This document shows, piece after piece, positions 4,655 through 22,322 of a stretch of 64,000 bases of DNA (positions are counted from its first letter, which is position 1; the number at the start of each line of letters is the position of its first letter). Position numbers and translations under genes: made by a program. The notes beneath the pieces are model-generated. The model saw only the letters and a list, made by a program, of their open reading frames with translations. It searched no databases and was not told the DNA's origin. The DNA comes from Salinivirga cyanobacteriivorans (GTDB lineage: Bacteria; Bacteroidota; Bacteroidia; Bacteroidales; Salinivirgaceae): NCBI RefSeq assembly GCF_001443605.1, contig NZ_CP013118.1:2367501-2431500 (forward strand), read 5' to 3'.

Positions 4655-4731
4655 AAGAGTATCAAAATGAACAAAATTACCTGCATACGGTGCAATACTC
4701 TGTAATTCTGTCTCATCGAAGCGTCCCTTCT
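4655..4731. repeat. Left 77-bp direct repeat flanking element E1 (repeat C copy 1)
   Basis: The sequence matches 5536-5612 with one difference (A4697 versus G5578). It ends exactly where the terminal inverted repeat of E1 begins. A third, related copy lies at about 6667-6737, so this stretch is also a repeat family (C). Confidence 0.85.
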
Positions 4732-5535
4732 CCTGTTTTGTGCAATGCATTACCCGTTTAACTGTTTTCCATAAGGAAATTTTCTTCTACCACTTTTTCT
4801 TGAAAAAAAGTGGCCAAAATTCAAGATCAAATTACGCTTCAACCCGCTCTGTTCAATAAACTAAATGACATATAAAAGCTGGACAAGCCTCTTTTATGTC
4901 ATTTATGTTTATTGAACAATCACGCTAACGCTAGCCCGCCAATTTGATCGGGCCAACCCGCTTTGGAGGTGCTATTCATTTACTAAAACGGTTAATTTTA
5001 GTCGGCCTAAGTATTTTTAGCGGGCACCTTCATCTTGAAATAAGCGCAAAATTAAAATCTGTTTGAACGGATGCGTAATGTTTTAATTTATTGCAATAGC
5101 GTCAATAGCATCCGTGAGTTATTTTAATTTAGCCCCGATCATGTTCAGCTAAAGCTTCACTATGTCGGGATTTACAACTTATGAAAGAGATGAAGGTCGC
5201 TTAAAATACTGAGCCTTGAACTTTTGCGCCACCCTTCGGTCGCCGAAGGCTTGCCGCAGGTGTTACGCTAAAGCTTAGGCGGCACGCGGTTGCTTCGTTT
5301 TTGTTTCAAGACAAAAATGAAGAGCCCAGCCGGCTGGAGGCGATGGTAATTAATGTTATTTCATTTTAACATTAGTACATCATTTCAAGAAAAACGACTT
5401 AGTGATAAATCCGAATTTTTAAGTCAATGACCCTTAAAATTTGTTCCGCATGACCCAAAATGCATATTTGTTATTCATAACTTACTGATATTCATACATG
5501 GGTTTTAGGGGAGTCGTCATGGTGCACAAAACAGG
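4732..5535. mobile_element. Non-coding TIR element E1 (MITE-like, ~804 bp)
   Basis: The ends are perfect 13-bp inverted repeats, CCTGTTTTGTGCA at 4732-4744 and its complement at 5523-5535. It is flanked by 77-bp direct repeats. It has no coding capacity. Inside are a CCACTTTTT/AAAAAGTGG hairpin (4790-4813), a long imperfect hairpin whose arms (4851-4878, 4891-4917) start and end with GTTCAATAAAC and its complement, a CCTTCGG/CCGAAGG hairpin (5233-5249) and a T/A-run hairpin (5294-5321). Its left 236 bp (4731-4966) is nearly identical to 21710-21945 in element E2. A transposase in trans is inferred; none is in the window. Confidence 0.7.
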
Positions 5536-5612
5536 AAGAGTATCAAAATGAACAAAATTACCTGCATACGGTGCAATGCTCTGTAATTCTGTCTCATCGA
5601 AGCGTCCCTTCT
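5536..5612. repeat. Right 77-bp direct repeat flanking E1 (repeat C copy 2)
   Basis: The sequence is a copy of 4655-4731. Here it continues into the natural family-C downstream sequence (gatgaggggaaaaaccacc at about 5634), as copy 3 does. The uninterrupted original site is therefore this one, and copy 1 is the duplicated end. Confidence 0.8.
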
Positions 5613-5820: not shown

Positions 5821-6216
5821 TTAATCGATCCAGTTTTCAACAGTAATCCCTCCCATTCTTTCAAATTCGCGGATGTTGCGGGTTACCATAATCATGTTGT
5901 TTGCAATAGCAGTTGAACCTATAAATAAATCTAAATCTCCGACAGTTTTGCCAATTGACTTTAATCTCGCTTTTTCTTTACCATAAATTTTCAAACAAGG
6001 TAAAATGGGCAGAATTTTGATTTTATCGGCAAACTCTTCAACAACCTGAAGATTTTTCTCAACCTTTTGGCTTTTCTCAGCTCCATATATCAACTCTGCT
6101 AAAGTTATTTCAGAAATCGCAAAATTTTCAAATCCTGCTTTTTCTACTTTTTCTTTAAGAGCAAACTGGCCTTTAAAGTAATGAATACAAATATTCGTAT
6201 CAAGAAGGTAATTCAT
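5821..6216 (-). CDS. vapC: VapC-like PIN-domain toxin
   Basis: The 131-residue protein is a single PIN domain, the RNase fold of type II toxins that cleave tRNA or rRNA. Acidic active-site positions of the family are present: D6 in LLDTN, E41 in TLAELIYG, D96 in GDLDLFIG, and the conserved N114 in TRNIREF. The C-terminus ENWID is also typical. The start codon overlaps the stop of the upstream antitoxin gene by one base (TAATG), the usual translationally coupled layout. The pair sits alone inside a repeat island with no other gene within about 1.5 kb on either side, so it is probably accessory DNA. The target RNA cannot be read from the sequence. Confidence 0.88.
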   Translation of the reverse strand: MNYLLDTNICIHYFKGQFALKEKVEKAGFENFAISEITLAELIYGAEKSQKVEKNLQVVEEFADKIKILPILPCLKIYGKEKARLKSIGKTVGDLDLFIGSTAIANNMIMVTRNIREFERMGGITVENWID

Positions 6217-6666: not shown

Positions 6667-6737
6667 AAAAATGAACGAAATTACCTGCATACGGTGCAAT
6701 ACTCTGTAATTCTGTCTCATCGAAGCGTCCCTTCTCC
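6667..6737. repeat. Repeat C, copy 3
   Basis: This copy shares ttacctgcatacggtgcaat and catcgaagcgtcccttctc with 4655-4731 and 5536-5612. It is followed by a variant of the same downstream sequence (gatgaggggaaaaaccacc at 6775) seen after copy 2, so the family is longer than the duplicated 77 bp. Confidence 0.75.
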
Positions 6738-12551: not shown

Positions 12552-12784
12552 ATAGATATCTCAGAGCCACGGCACCATAACCTTTAGCCCAAAGGAAACT
12601 CTTCCTTAACCTGCATATTTCGCCGATGACACTTTTATTACATCCAATAAAAAGCCTCATCGCGGCGAATTAGCATTTTCTACATCCGTTCTATTGATAT
12701 GTAAGTCCTCCGGACTTAAGAAACACAACGCAGCTTTCGAAAAACACACAGGCAATCAACACAATAAATTAATTCTGATAATGC

Positions 12785-12854
12785 ATTAGTTCTCTGAGTA
12801 GCTCTTTGCGCTGGCAATGTGAGAATCGAAGAGAACGATTCCCGAATCACTAAC
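12785..12854. repeat. Hairpin repeat S, copy 3 (left arm shortened)
   Basis: The right arm AGAGAACGATTC is complete, but the left arm lacks GAATCG as in copy 2. The loop is identical to the other copies. Confidence 0.7.
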
Positions 12855-12884
12855 CCACGCAACACAATTACTCAATCAACTAAT

Positions 12885-13469
12885 TAACTTAATCATTTTA
12901 CCTCTACGCCCTGGTAGGGCAACTTATTTCAAACCACGGGCAACGCCCTGGGTATATCAAGCCCACAGAAAATCGCGGCGTTTGACAAAAATTACCTCCA
13001 TTAAACCACCTCAGCGGCGAAACTTACGATACTAAAGAACAACGCTAGAATCTTTTTGCACACGTTGCATTTCGTGGCGTCACAATACCCGTCAAGGATT
13101 GCGTGAAAACCTCCAATCATCGCATATTTCGCCGATGACACTTTTATTACGTCCGGCAACAATCCATCGCGGCGAATTATCGCCTAATTACAATATTCTA
13201 CCAACATGTCAGCCCTACGGGCTTTCCGTAGCATGCTTTCATAACTATTAAAATAAACGAAACGGTTTTTAATTATAAACTTGAAACCTGAAACCACTCT
13301 TCATCGTCCCAAAGAGGCAATTTATTTCAACCCACAAGCAACGCCCCGAGTTTGATAATGCGTTAGTTGAATCGTTCTCTGAGTAGCTCTTTGCGCTGGC
13401 AATGTGAGAATCGAAGAAAACGATTCCCGAATCACTAACCCACGCAACACAATTACTCAATCAACCAAT
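12885..13469. repeat. 585-bp tandem repeat, unit 1
   Basis: The sequence recurs at +585 (13470-14054) with only scattered changes, for example tctacgcc versus tccacgcc. Junctions lie inside the S/REP blocks, so the exact edges are arbitrary. Confidence 0.75.
13362..13439. repeat. Hairpin repeat S, copy 4 (variant I)
   Basis: GTTAGT/ACTAAC arms with an inner GAATCGTTCTCT arm. The right arm reads aagaAAACGATTC, one pair weaker than copies 5 and 7. Confidence 0.75.
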
Positions 13470-14054
13470 TAACTTAATCATTTTACCTCCACGCCCTGGT
13501 AGGGCAACTTATTTCAAACCACGGGCAACGCCCTGGGTATATCAAGCCCACAGAAAATCGCGGCGTTTGACAAAAATTACCTCCATTAAACCACCTCAGC
13601 GGCGAAACTTACGATACTAAAGAACAACGCTAGAATCTTTTTGCACACGTTGCATTTCGTGGCGTCACAATACCCGTCAAGGATTGCGTGAAAACCTCCA
13701 ATCATCGCATATTTCGCCGATGACACTTTTATTACGTCCGGCAACAATCCATCGCGGCGAATTATCGCCTAATTACAATATTCTACCAACATGTCAGCCC
13801 TACGGGCTTTCCGTAGCATACTTTCATAACTATTAAAATAAACGAAACGGTTTTTAATTATAAACTTGAAACCTGAAACCACTCTTCATCGTCCCAAAGA
13901 GGCAATTTATTTCAACCCACAAGCAACGCCCCGAGTTTGATAATGCGTTAGTTGAATCGTTCTCTGAGTAGCTCTTTGCGCTGGCAATGTGAGAATCGAA
14001 GAGAACGATTCCCGAATCACTAACCCACGCAACACAATTACTCAATCAACTAAT
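13470..14054. repeat. 585-bp tandem repeat, unit 2
   Basis: Near-identical to the preceding unit. The following sequence starts a third unit but diverges after about 60 bp into a different REP arrangement. Confidence 0.75.
13947..14024. repeat. Hairpin repeat S, copy 5 (variant I)
   Basis: GAATCGTTCTCT pairs perfectly with AGAGAACGATTC (12 bp), with outer GTTAGT/ACTAAC. The loop is conserved. Confidence 0.8.
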
Positions 14055-14453
14055 TAACTTAATCATTTTACCTCCACGCCCTGAAAGGGCAACTTACATT
14101 AACCCACGGGCAACGCCCTGGGTATATCAAGCCCACAGAAAATCGCCGCTTTTGACAAAAATTACCTCCATTAAACCATCTCATCGGCGAAAGTTACTAC
14201 CAGAAAATAACACAAGCACATTTTCATGCGCCTAATAATTCCTGGAAATCCATAAGCATTCGTGGATTATGAACCTTCAATACATATTTCGCCGATGACA
14301 ATTTTAACACTTCCAATAAAAAGCCTCATCGCGGCGAATTAGCATTTTCTACATCCGTTCTATTGATATGTAAGTCCTCCGGACTTAAGAAACACAACTC
14401 AGCTTTCGAAAAACACACAGGCAATCAACACAATAAATTAATTCTAATAATGC

Positions 14454-14531
14454 GTTAGTTGGATAGTTCTCTGAGTAGCTCTTTGCGCTGGCATTGTGTG
14501 AATCGAAGAGAACAGGACCCGCATCCCTAAC
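14454..14531. repeat. Hairpin repeat S, copy 6 (variant II)
   Basis: Same GGAT/ATCC arm variant as copy 1. It marks the left junction of the 1632-bp tandem duplication; identity with the second unit begins at its CTAAC end (14527). Confidence 0.78.
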
Positions 14532-14854
14532 CCACGCAACACAATTACTCAATCAACTAATTAACTTAATCATTTTACCTCCACGCCCTGAAAGGGCAAC
14601 TTACATTAACCCACGGGCAACGCCCTGGGTATATCAAGCCCACAGAAAATCGCCGCGTTTGACAAAAATTACCTCCATTAAACCATCTCAGCGGCGAAAA
14701 TTACGATATAAAGAACAATGCAAGAATCTCTTTACGCAAATCGCAATTCCTGGCATCCTTAAAGCTTTAAAGGATTCCATAAGATTTCCAGATCAATACA
14801 AATTTCGCCAACACCCCTCAACCGGCAACAGAAAGCAAAAAAACATCCCCATGC

Positions 14855-14883
14855 TGTAACTAATTTCCAACCTCCCCGTCATA
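14855..14883 (+). promoter_or_regulatory. ECF-type promoter of barrel gene 2
   Basis: TGTAAC (14855-14860), a 16-base spacer and CGTCATA (14877-14883), 30 nt before the ATG. Confidence 0.75.
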
Positions 14884-14913
14884 GAGACAAAATAACCCTT
14901 AAAATCAGAAATT

Positions 14914-15762
14914 ATGAAAACTTTAAACCTAATCTTAGCCTTTACATTGATCACCGCAACACTTTTTGCACAAAAACCCGACAGTACAGCTACACCAACC
15001 ACCACAAAAGACACTTCATACCTGAAGGTCAACGGTAAAGAAATCATTATTATCGAAGACAAAGATGCTTTTGACACCAAATTTGAAGAGTGGGATGATG
15101 ACAATGATTTCTCGAAAATGAATGTGGACATCAGTTGGAATAAAAGATTCGATGGCCATTATGGAGGAATCGAACTGGGTGTAAACAACTACCTTAATTC
15201 AGACATGGAAATGAAGGTACCCGAAGATGGTCAATTCATGGAACTGGACGATTCCAAATCACTGGAGTTTAACTGGAACATTGCCGACGTGGCACTTCCA
15301 ATTGTAAAAAACCGTTTTGGATTGGTTACCGGCCTTGGACTAAGCTGGAACAACTACAAATTTGACAACAAACAGCTGGTGCTGAAAAATGATGGTAATG
15401 AACTTTATGCAGAATATGACAGCGTAAAAACCTATTCAAAAAACAAACTTACCAGTGTATTCCTGAATGTACCCCTAATGCTGGAATTTCAACAACCTGT
15501 TGGAAGTAAGGAACTTTGGATAGCCGTAGGAGGATATGGCGGCGTAAAAATTGGCAGTCACACAAAACTTAAAACCAACGATGGCGACAAAACCAAAGTA
15601 AGAAAAGATTTCCACCTGAACACATTGCGTTACGGATTACGCGCACAAGTCGGATTCGATAGTTTTGGATTGTATTGTAATTATAGCCTACAGTCGCTAT
15701 TCAAAAAAGACGAAGGCCCTGAGTTGTATCCGATAAGTCTTGGTGTTAGCCTGGCATTTTAG
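14914..15762 (+). CDS. Small outer-membrane beta-barrel protein, paralogue 2a
   Basis: The 282-residue protein has a signal peptide (about 1-19, ending ATLFAQ). A Thr-rich linker and acidic segment (EIIIIEDKDAFDTKFEEWDD, about 47-68) precede the barrel strands (HYGGIELGVN, GLVTGLGLSWNNYKF, LWIAVGGYGGVKIGSHTK, YGLRAQVGFDSFGLYCNYS). The last residues ISLGVSLAF end in Phe. It is homologous to paralogue 1 throughout, and its DNA and protein are identical to paralogue 2b 1632 bp downstream. It carries the same ECF promoter and probably answers to the sigma factor at 9881. No substrate can be inferred. Confidence 0.82.
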   Translation: MKTLNLILAFTLITATLFAQKPDSTATPTTTKDTSYLKVNGKEIIIIEDKDAFDTKFEEWDDDNDFSKMNVDISWNKRFDGHYGGIELGVNNYLNSDMEMKVPEDGQFMELDDSKSLEFNWNIADVALPIVKNRFGLVTGLGLSWNNYKFDNKQLVLKNDGNELYAEYDSVKTYSKNKLTSVFLNVPLMLEFQQPVGSKELWIAVGGYGGVKIGSHTKLKTNDGDKTKVRKDFHLNTLRYGLRAQVGFDSFGLYCNYSLQSLFKKDEGPELYPISLGVSLAF

Positions 15763-15786
15763 TCCGGCAACGGAACTACTCAGTAC

Positions 15787-15819
15787 GGGGGTTGTCTTCT
15801 TAGGAGGCAACCCTTTTTT
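15787..15819 (+). terminator. Rho-independent terminator of barrel gene 2a
   Basis: GGGTTG (15789-15794) pairs with CAACCC (15808-15813), followed by TTTTTT. Confidence 0.7.
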
Positions 15820-15839
15820 CAGGTCAAAATAATTGCCTA

Positions 15840-16340
15840 AAATACAAATTTCGCCGATGGCACTTTTAATACTTCCAATTAAAAACCTCATCGCGGCGAA
15901 TTATCGCTTAATTACAATATTCTACCAACATGTCAGCCCTACGGGCTTTCCGTAGCATACTTTCATAACTATTAAAATAAACGAAACGGTTTTTAATTAT
16001 AAACTTGAAACCTGAAACCACTCTTCATCGTCCCAAAGAGGCAATTTATTTCAACCCACAAGCAACGCCCCGAGTTTGATAATGCGTTAGTTGAATCGTT
16101 CTCTGAGTAGCTCTTTGCGCTGGCAATGTGAGAATCGAAGAGAACGATTCCCGAATCACTAACCCACGCAACACAATTACTCAATCAACTAATTAACTTA
16201 ATCATTTTACCTCCACGCCCTGAAAGGGCAACTTACATTAACCCACGGGCAACGCCCTGGGTATATCAAGCCCACAGAAAATCGCCGCGTTTGACAAAAA
16301 TTACCTCCATTAAACCATCTCAGCGGCGAAAATTACGATA
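15840..16340. repeat. REP-like mosaic repeat array 3
   Basis: It contains the TTCGCCGATGG / CATCGCGGCGAA pair (about 15847-15901), the AGCCCTACGGGCT hairpin, S copy 7 and the cgccctgaaagggc / gggcaacgccctgggt pair. It separates the two identical barrel genes and holds the recombination junction. Confidence 0.75.
16086..16163. repeat. Hairpin repeat S, copy 7 (variant I)
   Basis: GAATCGTTCTCT/AGAGAACGATTC perfect inner stem and GTTAGT/ACTAAC outer pairs. It marks the right junction partner of copy 6. Confidence 0.8.
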
Positions 16341-16486
16341 TAAAGAACAATGCAAGAATCTCTTTACGCAAATCGCAATTCCTGGCATCCTTAAAGCTTT
16401 AAAGGATTCCATAAGATTTCCAGATCAATACAAATTTCGCCAACACCCCTCAACCGGCAACAGAAAGCAAAAAAACATCCCCATGC

Positions 16487-16515
16487 TGTAACTAATTTCC
16501 AACCTCCCCGTCATA
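16487..16515 (+). promoter_or_regulatory. ECF-type promoter of barrel gene 3
   Basis: TGTAAC (16487-16492), a 16-base spacer and CGTCATA (16509-16515); duplicated together with the gene. Confidence 0.75.
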
Positions 16516-16545
16516 GAGACAAAATAACCCTTAAAATCAGAAATT

Positions 16546-17394
16546 ATGAAAACTTTAAACCTAATCTTAGCCTTTACATTGATCACCGCAACACTTTTTG
16601 CACAAAAACCCGACAGTACAGCTACACCAACCACCACAAAAGACACTTCATACCTGAAGGTCAACGGTAAAGAAATCATTATTATCGAAGACAAAGATGC
16701 TTTTGACACCAAATTTGAAGAGTGGGATGATGACAATGATTTCTCGAAAATGAATGTGGACATCAGTTGGAATAAAAGATTCGATGGCCATTATGGAGGA
16801 ATCGAACTGGGTGTAAACAACTACCTTAATTCAGACATGGAAATGAAGGTACCCGAAGATGGTCAATTCATGGAACTGGACGATTCCAAATCACTGGAGT
16901 TTAACTGGAACATTGCCGACGTGGCACTTCCAATTGTAAAAAACCGTTTTGGATTGGTTACCGGCCTTGGACTAAGCTGGAACAACTACAAATTTGACAA
17001 CAAACAGCTGGTGCTGAAAAATGATGGTAATGAACTTTATGCAGAATATGACAGCGTAAAAACCTATTCAAAAAACAAACTTACCAGTGTATTCCTGAAT
17101 GTACCCCTAATGCTGGAATTTCAACAACCTGTTGGAAGTAAGGAACTTTGGATAGCCGTAGGAGGATATGGCGGCGTAAAAATTGGCAGTCACACAAAAC
17201 TTAAAACCAACGATGGCGACAAAACCAAAGTAAGAAAAGATTTCCACCTGAACACATTGCGTTACGGATTACGCGCACAAGTCGGATTCGATAGTTTTGG
17301 ATTGTATTGTAATTATAGCCTACAGTCGCTATTCAAAAAAGACGAAGGCCCTGAGTTGTATCCGATAAGTCTTGGTGTTAGCCTGGCATTTTAG
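16546..17394 (+). CDS. Small outer-membrane beta-barrel protein, paralogue 2b (identical to 2a)
   Basis: The 282-residue protein is identical in DNA and protein to 14914-15762. Signal peptide, acidic linker, barrel strands and terminal Phe are as described there. The lack of even silent differences points to a very recent duplication or ongoing gene conversion; an assembly artefact is the alternative. With its own intact ECF promoter and terminator, the copy should double the dose of this protein. Confidence 0.82.
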   Translation: MKTLNLILAFTLITATLFAQKPDSTATPTTTKDTSYLKVNGKEIIIIEDKDAFDTKFEEWDDDNDFSKMNVDISWNKRFDGHYGGIELGVNNYLNSDMEMKVPEDGQFMELDDSKSLEFNWNIADVALPIVKNRFGLVTGLGLSWNNYKFDNKQLVLKNDGNELYAEYDSVKTYSKNKLTSVFLNVPLMLEFQQPVGSKELWIAVGGYGGVKIGSHTKLKTNDGDKTKVRKDFHLNTLRYGLRAQVGFDSFGLYCNYSLQSLFKKDEGPELYPISLGVSLAF

Positions 17395-17418
17395 TCCGGC
17401 AACGGAACTACTCAGTAC

Positions 17419-17451
17419 GGGGGTTGTCTTCTTAGGAGGCAACCCTTTTTT
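17419..17451 (+). terminator. Rho-independent terminator of barrel gene 2b
   Basis: Duplicate of the 15787-15819 hairpin (GGGTTG/CAACCC then T-run). Confidence 0.7.
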
Positions 17452-17469
17452 CAGGTCAAAATAATTGCC

Positions 17470-17800
17470 TAAAATACAAATTTCGCCGATGGCACTTTTA
17501 ATACTTCCAATTAAAAACCTCATCGCGGCGAATTATCGCTTAATTACAATATTCTACCAACATGTCAGCCCTACGGGCTTTCCGTAGCATACTTTCATAA
17601 CTATTAAAATAAACGAAACGGTTTTGAATTATAAACTTGAAACCTGAAACCACTCTTCATCGTCCCAAAGGGGCAACTTACATCAACCCATAAGCAACAC
17701 CCTGGATTAGATCACACCATTCCGAAAACCGCCGCGTTTGTCAGTAATTACTTTCCAAACAGTTCATCATCGGCGAAACTTATGATGTTGCAAAGGAACA
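17470..17800. repeat. REP-like mosaic repeat array 4 (diverged end)
   Basis: It begins as a copy of array 3 and degrades after 17626 (caacccataagcaacaccct). It ends with a CGCCGCG / CATCGGCG pair near 17732-17774. No gene was seen up to the AsmA-like gene. Confidence 0.6.
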
Positions 17801-20408: not shown

Positions 20409-21572
20409 ATGAACATATACACACATAAAAGGCGTTATAAAATTGCCATTATTGGCCTGGCCATCCTAATTAGTATACTCTCTCTGGGTTACTCGAATTT
20501 TTTGGTTGAAAAACTATCTGAACAGGAGCGGAAGCGGGTAGAACTTTTTGCAGAAGCTACAAGGCGGTTTGCACAAACAGACAACATGAACGAAGACCTG
20601 ACGTTTGTATCAGAAGTAATTACGCGCAATGACAACATTCCCGTAATTCTCACCAACGAGAACGACAGCATTATTTCGCATAAAAACCTGAACGAACGCA
20701 AAGCCGTTAACCCCGAATATCTGAAACGCCGGCTCAGCCAAATGAAAGAAAAACACGACCCCGTAATCATCGACATCTTAAACGGAAAAATTGAACGCCG
20801 GGTCTATTATGATGATTCAACCCTGCTGAGTATGCTTTTTTGGTTCCCATTTGTACAAATTGGCATTTTCGGGCTTTTCATACTTATGGCCTATATGGCA
20901 TTCAGTGCCTCGCGTCGTGCTGAACAAAACCAGGTGTGGGTTGGTATGTCGAAAGAAACAGCCCATCAGCTGGGCACACCAATATCTTCCCTCATAGCCT
21001 GGGTGGAGCTAATGAAAGCAGAACAAAAATGCCACGAGTATGCCGACGAGATGCAAGCCGACCTCAGCAGATTGGAAACCATTGTGGAACGATTCTCTAA
21101 AGTTGGTGCCAGGCCAGTTTTAAAACCAACCGACATCGATCAGGTTCTGGCAAACTCTGTGGCCTACATGAAAAGAAGGGCCTCTACACAAATTGAAATC
21201 AATTACATAAAAAATGAATCCGATTCGAATATTGTTCCACTGAACAAAGCGCTATTCTCCTGGGTTATTGAAAATGTAATTAAAAACGCCATTGATGCCA
21301 TTGAGCGAAAAGGAACCATCAAGATTAGCGTGGTGCATGATAAGAAACACTTAAATGTTGATATCGAAGATACGGGTAAAGGCATTAGCCGAACAAAATT
21401 CAAACGAATTTTCCAACCCGGCATCACCACCAAACAAAGAGGCTGGGGACTTGGTCTCTCGCTATCGAAACGCATTATCAACGATTATCATAAAGGCAAC
21501 ATATTTGTAAAATGGTCTGAGCCCGGCAAAGGCACAGTAATTCGAATAGAATTAAAAAGACCCATCGATTAA
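20409..21572 (+). CDS. Membrane sensor histidine kinase
   Basis: The 387-residue protein has two transmembrane segments (about 10-32 and 148-170) around a small extracytoplasmic domain. The phospho-acceptor is H186 in the AHQLGTPISSL box. The ATPase domain has N293 in NVIKNAIDAIE, D321 in EDTGKGI and the loop GWGLGLSLSK. All boxes look intact. There is no receiver domain and no response-regulator gene beside it. The last codons (KRPID and stop) lie inside a 99-bp segment that was duplicated when element E2 was inserted downstream; the gene itself was kept whole. Confidence 0.88.
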   Translation: MNIYTHKRRYKIAIIGLAILISILSLGYSNFLVEKLSEQERKRVELFAEATRRFAQTDNMNEDLTFVSEVITRNDNIPVILTNENDSIISHKNLNERKAVNPEYLKRRLSQMKEKHDPVIIDILNGKIERRVYYDDSTLLSMLFWFPFVQIGIFGLFILMAYMAFSASRRAEQNQVWVGMSKETAHQLGTPISSLIAWVELMKAEQKCHEYADEMQADLSRLETIVERFSKVGARPVLKPTDIDQVLANSVAYMKRRASTQIEINYIKNESDSNIVPLNKALFSWVIENVIKNAIDAIERKGTIKISVVHDKKHLNVDIEDTGKGISRTKFKRIFQPGITTKQRGWGLGLSLSKRIINDYHKGNIFVKWSEPGKGTVIRIELKRPID

Positions 21573-21655
21573 TTCCAAACCAGGCTTCGGCTATAAAACA
21601 TAATTCGCTACAACTTTTAAATTAATTACTCATCATACTTCCCCGTTTTATCTTC
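21557..21655. repeat. Left 99-bp direct repeat flanking element E2
   Basis: Matches 22224-22322 with no difference seen. It contains the functional 3' end of the histidine kinase gene and a dead copy of the 3' end of the convergent thiamine-binding gene. Confidence 0.9.
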
Positions 21656-22223
21656 CTGTTTTGTGCACCACATCGACGCCATAAAAACCGGATACTGAAA
21701 ATCAGCAAGTCCTGTTTTGTGCAATGCATTACCCGTTTAACTGTTTTCCATAAGGAAATTTTCTTCTACCACTTTTTCTTGAAAAAAAGTGGCCAAAATT
21801 CAAGATCAAATTACGCTTCAACCCGCTCTGTTCAATAAACTAAATGACATATAAAAGCTGGACAAGCCTCTTTTATGTCATTTATATTCATTGAACATTC
21901 ACTCTACCGCTGGCCCGCCAATTTGATCAGGCCAGCCCGCTTTGGGTCTTGTAAATTGTTTAGGCTTTAGAAAGTTGCTTCGAAGCCAAAATACGTTAAG
22001 AGAATCTGCTTATTATGACGTGAAAATTTGCGCTGCTTGAACTCCAATTTTTCCTAAAAAAATCAGAGTGAGTTTGCAAACTTAATCATAATGAGTAGAT
22101 TTTTAGTGTTTTTCTGTAAGCGGCAGGGTCTCCGCCAGTAGTCGGACAAGGTTTTTTGATTCTTTTTTTGACCTGAAGCAAAAAAAGAATAATCAATTAT
22201 AGATCATGCATTGCTCAAAACAG
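21656..22223. mobile_element. Non-coding TIR element E2 (MITE-like, 568 bp)
   Basis: Ends are CTGTTTTGTGCA (21656-21667) and TGCTCAAAACAG (22212-22223), inverted with one mismatch. Directly flanking are 99-bp direct repeats. Inside at 21711-21729 is a second end-like copy that matches the complement of the right end over 17 of 18 bases (CTGTTTTGNGCAATGCAT). The first ~60 bp resemble the inverted right end of E1, so E2 looks like a composite of two ends. Shared with E1 are the 236-bp block (21710-21945), the CCACTTTTT hairpin (21769-21792) and the long hairpin (21830-21896). Near the right end is a perfect 12-bp T/A-run hairpin (22159-22190). There is no coding frame. Confidence 0.75.
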
Positions 22224-22322
22224 AAGACCCATCGATTAATTCCAAACCAGGCTTCGGCTATAAAACATAATTCGCTACAACTTTTAAATTAATTACTCAT
22301 CATACTTCCCCGTTTTATCTTC
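22224..22322. repeat. Right 99-bp direct repeat flanking element E2
   Basis: Copy of 21557-21655. Here the functional part is the 3' end of the thiamine-binding gene, while the histidine kinase 3' end is a dead copy. Confidence 0.9.

Follow-up and report, generated by a model that had tools for sequence, protein, structure and literature searches.

What kind of element occupies positions 4732 to 5535 of the window, and how could it come to lie between direct repeats as long as 77 bp? An insertion usually duplicates 4 to 10 bp of its landing site, and a DDE transposase normally fixes the distance between the two joints at a few bases. The window is the whole stretch of DNA that was analyzed, 64,000 nucleotides corresponding to positions 2,367,501 to 2,431,500 of the 4.81-Mb single-contig genome of Salinivirga cyanobacteriivorans. 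We examined the element and its flanks, its copies elsewhere in the genome, and related insertion sequences in this and other genomes.

Two related elements in the window

The original prediction described an element with perfect 13-bp inverted ends, immediately bordered by 77-bp direct repeats with one mismatch, and this description was borne out (Table 1). It also held that the left 236 bp are shared with a second element of the window, which the alignment confirmed, and that the flanking duplications of the two elements measure 77 and 99 bp. The first length is correct; the second is 97 bp when counted from the terminal bases and reaches 99 bp only when one ambiguous end base per side is included. 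The elements at 4732 to 5535 and 21655 to 22224 are members of one family at independent sites.

A further copy of the 77-bp flank, located about 1 kb downstream, had been put forward as an example of an uninterrupted site. That proposal stands in part. On its right side, the copy extends into sequence resembling that beyond 5612, so the right border is crossed; the left border of the repeat is missed, because the good match begins only at 6668.

Table 1. Coordinates of the two elements and associated features in the window.
Feature	Position	Strand	Remarks
Left target-site duplication, 77 bp	4655..4731	.	76/77 vs 5536-5612; abuts left end
MITE copy, 804 bp	4732..5535	+	Perfect 13-bp TIR; without listed ORF of at least 80 aa
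Left TIR CCTGTTTTGTGCA	4732..4744	+	ACCC at bases 21-24, in register with IS1634 right-end CACCC
Right TIR, exact reverse complement of CCTGTTTTGTGCA	5523..5535	-	
Right target-site duplication, 77 bp	5536..5612	.	Abuts right end, no gap
236-bp block	4731..4966	+	97% identical to 21710-21945
Long internal hairpin in 236-bp block	4850..4918	.	Fold z-score -7.28; inverted self-match 85% over 69 bp
Element-free paralogue of duplicated segment	6659..6737	+	Good match from 6668; continues past right border
Left target-site duplication, 97 bp strict	21558..21654	.	97/97
Second MITE copy, 570 bp, rearranged	21655..22224	-	Outer left end 21655; further internal end 21711; right end 2 mismatches
Right target-site duplication	22225..22321	.	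97/97

Inverted self-matches like that of the hairpin at 4850 to 4918 are also present in other copies of the element. A search for known RNAs found no Rfam match at the gathering threshold in window positions 1 to 30000. Near the element, a gene on the minus strand (window 5821 to 6216) encodes a 131-aa PIN-domain protein that may act as the toxin in a toxin-antitoxin pair. Elsewhere in the window (12600 to 17720), we observed large repeats of intergenic blocks at spacings of 585 and 1632 bp, together with two 282-aa outer-membrane beta-barrel genes that have the same family match and lie 1632 bp apart.

A family of dispersed copies with long flanking repeats

A genome search with window positions 4655 to 5612 returned 73 matches, two rows of which are the window copy itself and four the flanking repeat only. 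With at most one mismatch allowed, the 13-mer end occurs 78 times in the genome, compared with 3 occurrences for the same letters read backwards, and the element pattern is therefore not due to chance. Ends were paired in 40 stretches and in the window, and repeats were measured by ungapped and gapped comparison. From 33 initial pairings, four spurious ones were removed (953526, 2389211, 2513440-2513572, and 4523793) and two copies were added (951721-954411 and 2513440-2513876), giving 31 copies at 19 sites. A 7.4-kb composite, described below, was counted as one site; its two MITE copies, taken singly, are without a repeat. The tally covers copies with a recognizable pair of ends; 8 of the 20 stretches of the first set and 15 of the 20 of the second yielded no such pair.

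Where both ends were recognized, 17 of the 19 sites have direct repeats adjoining the element at either end. Some of these repeats are perfect and others are eroded (at 2460441, 50 of 60 positions match); no repeat was found at 2667762 and 3606428. The repeats at the 16 independent sites measure ~40, 44, 46, 60, 65, 71, 77, 97, 101, 105, 109, 162, 167, 173, 274, and 283 bp, the arrays at 2190161 and 3586026 being counted once because they share one duplicated segment. Duplication is thus found at most sites at which both ends are recognized, and the staggered insertion process of variable length that had been suggested from the sequence alone is supported. Among 101 end-like 13-mers with at most two mismatches, a set that includes chance matches and solitary ends, 47 had no partner repeat.

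Tandem arrays occur at six places (L012, L020, L023, L044, L050, and L053), each repeating unit being an element together with a single duplicated segment. In the arrays at 2190161 and 3586026, the outer left flank is ~85% like the inner segment; a clear copy of the segment was absent from the outer left flank of the array at 4292252. The copies diverge widely inside and have their ends and arrangement in common. They are short, have inverted ends and no transposase gene, and exist as many dispersed copies flanked by duplications, all of which are features of a MITE. We also noticed that two MITE ends 57.6 kb apart (C1:4612942 and C1:4670581) share a 90-bp repeat, as if a rearrangement had split one element.

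When 60 related genomes, including that of S. cyanobacteriivorans itself, were searched with the element, six matched, and beyond its own genome the match was strong only in two congeneric genomes. Eleven loci were examined in the related genomes. Two have repeats, one of 55 to 65 bp that is eroded (L106) and one of 30 bp with one poor end (L112); a locus with two perfect ends in a sister species (L097 in G002) has no repeat.

Resident IS1634 copies and the ends of the MITEs

The genome contains eight matches above the cutoff of the IS1634 transposase model NF033559, seven of them with an open frame of 496 aa. At seven of the eight resident copies, the ends are complete and of the CCTGTTTTCCGGAT type (left, CCTGTTTTCCGGATT; right, CCTGTTTTCCGGATAGGACACCCA). 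Six are flanked by perfect repeats of 88, 90, 111, 142, 209, and 241 bp; of the remaining two, one lies in a tandem-repeat region and the other is not a simple full copy.

Resident IS1634 and MITE ends have the start CCTGTTTT in common and diverge after base 8; the subterminal motif, located at the right end of the resident IS1634, is shared as well. In right ends of IS1634 loci from other genomes, [AGT]CACCC was detected at position 18 or 19 in 57 of 61 cases, compared with 1 of 61 left ends in which it occurs anywhere; the chance of finding it anywhere in a genomic 20-mer is ~0.7%. Among 45 distinct MITE-like ends, the motif is at position 19 in 8, and ACCC occupies bases 21 to 24 in 11, including the left end of the window element. 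The strict CACCC is missing from 37 of the 45, and the other type of MITE end lacks the motif. What connects the MITE ends with the IS1634 transposase is a match of sequence, namely the common start and, in some ends, CACCC in register.

Ends beginning with GTGCA were found neither among the eight IS1634 matches of the genome, whose ends are of the CCGGAT type, nor among 19 loci of relatives (L116 to L134) in an automatic end search, in which only L120 had convincing ends. The nearest to a GTGCA-ended IS1634 is a copy in Cyclobacterium roseum (L186) with the ends CCTGTTTTGTGCG and CCTGTTTTGAGCG. From the shared ends, the flanking repeats, and the joints described below, we consider it probable that the window element is a non-autonomous MITE of the IS1634 family that is moved in trans and that attaches each of its two ends to the target at a site chosen independently of the other. 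The original prediction did not include this identity, nor the fact that the literature already describes long variable duplications for the IS1634 family.

Other observations concern the surroundings and orientation of these elements. At L088, an IS1634 copy has inserted so that one of its joints falls no more than one or two bases from a MITE border. The resident IS1634 with the 111-bp repeat interrupts another DDE transposase gene (L094:1718-5002). All eight resident copies have a single orientation relative to the replication axis (minus before ~2.45 Mb and plus after); GC skew is mostly negative before ~2.45 Mb and mostly positive after, with exceptions, and dnaA is at position 412. MITE orientations, judged by eye without a formal count, appeared mixed.

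One MITE copy contains an IS701-like insertion (C1:952389-954155; L012:5390-7156) with a 23- to 24-bp sequence repeated at its sides, as judged by eye; the 4-bp duplication that PMC2266710 gives for IS701 is shorter. The 456-aa IS701-like gene in this copy was ruled out as the MITE parent. It is part of a 1767-bp stretch that is 100% identical at L087 and therefore represents a separate insertion.

Uninterrupted sites

The flanking repeats are target-site duplications, since uninterrupted relatives of several sites hold a single copy of the segment. When the flanks of the resident IS1634 with the 209-bp repeat were joined, a paralogue (L027) aligned with them at 98.4% identity over 977 bp and had one copy; the target there is an integrase-core (rve) gene that belongs to another mobile element. 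Three copies in L016, 75 to 77% identical, span both repeat borders of the window element. For an IS1634 with a 572-bp repeat in Algoriphagus (L202), two congeneric loci (L263 and L264) each align in one piece over both borders, and L262 aligns with the joined region in two pieces, one per border, the length difference lying inside the repeat. The genome that contains L202 has one match to that IS end.

IS1634 relatives in other genomes

From a scan of named genomes for related transposases, we took the best 80 of 133 loci. Four had no end pair and 15 were without CCTG at both ends, leaving 61, of which 14 had less than 600 bp of flank, leaving 47. The criteria for pairing ends included the repeat score, and the bias that this brings was lessened by demanding CCTG at both ends; a further ACCC filter removed no row. 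Within these best 80 of 133 loci, repeats of at least 10 bp, measuring 16 to 789 bp, were present in 28 of the 61. Among the 47 in which each flank reaches 600 bp or more, 25 had such a repeat, again of 16 to 789 bp, and the other 22 had no repeat of at least 10 bp.

Two of the no-repeat copies, both in Litoribacter populi, have exactly swapped flanks: the left flank of L192 matches the right flank of L223 perfectly over 524 bp, and the left flank of L223 matches the right flank of L192 perfectly over 320 bp. Such an exchange implies either that the copies recombined, by an inversion or a translocation running through the IS, or that the assembly was misjoined. A third no-repeat copy, L236, has Ns at the junction. 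With these three set aside, 19 of the 22 remain, no record of which is titled as a complete genome or chromosome. For one no-repeat locus in Belliella (L251), the matching site in G133 has no counterpart of the right flank within 1.5 kb. Apart from stretches of N, no long open frames such as would allow a disrupted gene to be compared enter both junctions at the 22 no-repeat sites.

A common motif at both joints

The first base inside the duplication is A at 39 of 46 joints in the first set (23 sites) and at 52 of 56 in the second (28 sites). Pooled over 50 insertions, with the locus that occurs in both sets (L120 = L185) counted once, A comes first at 89 of 100 joints, and the next two bases are mostly A or G. 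Of the 22 no-repeat copies, 19 are preceded by T at the left end and 20 are followed by A at the right end. Each end is joined ahead of the A-rich motif 5'-N|ARAA, the two motifs lying on opposite strands of the target. Because the motif is the same at both joints, a single target preference seems to have been used twice, once on each strand, with free spacing and in the orientation that yields a duplication.

A composite bounded by MITE copies

The composite at C1:2779283-2786645 (L017:3284-10646) comprises 7,363 bp between two MITE copies. Its cargo includes two large genes ending in type IX sorting tails, neither of which was recognized as a transposase; the other listed frames are small. 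The outer repeat, of 167 bp with 166 matches, duplicates the 3' end of a sugar transferase gene and sequence beyond it. In sister genome G002 (L281), the same neighbor genes are joined and the insert is absent; in sister genome G001 (L282), the locus aligns on the left side only. The 7,363-bp composite may have moved as a unit between MITE ends. Mobile insertion cassettes (MICs), which are related to IS231, carry cargo between IS ends, encode no transposase, and are moved in trans, a pattern that the composite may share; it is unlike them in being bounded by two MITE copies and in having a 167-bp duplication.

Possible mechanism and alternatives

The comparisons above show IS1634-type ends, a duplication of the target that varies in length, and a joint motif; from them we infer the target-side mechanism and the repair. 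An IS1634-family DDE transposase acting in trans would excise the element, and the element's two 3' ends would then be joined one after the other, with no fixed stagger, the first at N|ARAA and the second to the opposite strand, at a distance of tens to hundreds of bases downstream. DNA synthesis between the two joints or after them, by fill-in or strand displacement, would then place a copy of the segment at either side of the element. If the duplications later underwent homologous recombination with each other, tandem arrays of the element and one duplicated segment could arise, and recombination between element copies could produce swapped flanks. More generally, we propose tentatively, and with somewhat less than even confidence, that IS1634 transposition in Bacteroidota uncouples the two strand transfers. 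Each end would independently pick N|ARAA, the second 16 to 789 bp downstream on the opposite strand, with synthesis copying the segment between them; MITEs would inherit this behavior and seed tandem arrays, and pairs of MITEs would move host genes.

We rate this sequential model highest because duplications dominate in the organism's own genome. The two ends of the excised element might instead attach, at positions offset from each other, to the two sister duplexes that trail a replication fork, in which case one product would be duplicated and the other deleted by an equal size. This could explain why both joints have the same local motif and are independently spaced, and the 22 no-repeat copies, which keep the T and A at their ends, could be the deletion products; because of these copies, we retain the sister-duplex model as an alternative, albeit an unlikely one. 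It predicts roughly equal numbers of deletions and duplications, however, whereas repeats dominate in the genome studied here (17 of 19 MITE sites and 6 of 8 IS copies), and the sole no-repeat pair that was resolved by cross-comparison within a genome (L192/L223) proved to have swapped flanks, not deletions. We regard as a little less probable still a concerted insertion of both ends, far apart, into a target that is single-stranded or melted, as at a fork or an R-loop. Such a reaction would yield only duplications, with variable length and A-rich joints, and the uniform orientation of the eight resident IS1634 copies relative to the replication axis is in keeping with it, but melted stretches of up to 789 bp would be long, and the MITE orientations appear mixed by eye.

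It is very improbable that a transposase of another family moves the MITE and that the CCTGTTTT end is coincidental. In favor of that explanation, the resident IS1634 is unlike the MITE past base 8, and one MITE copy harbors an IS701-like transposase gene (L012:5401-6771); the gene, however, belongs to a separate insertion, and the register of the motif, the long duplications, and the joint motif all fit IS1634. Least credible of all is the idea that old tandem duplication or homologous recombination gave rise to the direct repeats, with the element simply lying between them. Although the element and the repeat do form tandem arrays at six places, at many unrelated targets the repeats adjoin the element's terminal bases at either end and the same joint motif recurs. 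The uninterrupted sites, which hold a single copy, also contradict this idea.

Relation to known systems and implications

Long variable direct repeats, ranging from 8 to 514 bp by copy, have been described for IS1634 of Mycoplasma mycoides and IS1549 of Mycobacterium smegmatis (PMC2266710). According to that 2008 study of the family, a mechanistic model for them had yet to be put forward. The elements described here resemble IS1634 and IS1549 in family and in their long variable duplications (~40 to 283 bp for the MITEs and the composite and 88 to 241 bp for the resident IS). They differ in that IS1634 and IS1549 are autonomous, the available text mentioning neither a MITE nor a composite (PMC2266710), and in that the duplications found here reach 789 bp and come mostly from Bacteroidota. 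ISPfe2 and Tn6097 of Paracoccus also combine an IS1634-family transposase with a composite transposon, but the duplications given for the IS and the composite alike are 6 bp (PMC3281130). MITECca01 of Cardinium is a MITE bearing the ends of a resident IS; it is derived from IS982, and its description uses neither the term direct repeat nor the term target site (PMC9769881). Among literature on IS1634 together with MITE, Bacteroidetes, or target site duplication, considered by title or abstract start and including PMC11448079, PMC3281130, PMC9769881, and PMC2266710, we found no IS1634-derived MITE with long duplications. For IS1634 and IS1549, duplications of this long and variable kind are already published; added here are the MITEs, the joint rule, the tandem arrays, and the 7.4-kb composite bounded by MITEs.

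Fifty duplications of 16 to 789 bp, one joint motif, and several checks against empty sites turn a puzzle into testable predictions. These data suggest that small non-autonomous relatives carry the long-duplication property of the family and use it to amplify and move DNA. If this is true, every insertion would leave behind a recombination-prone repeat able to seed tandem arrays, and pairs of MITEs could move host genes.
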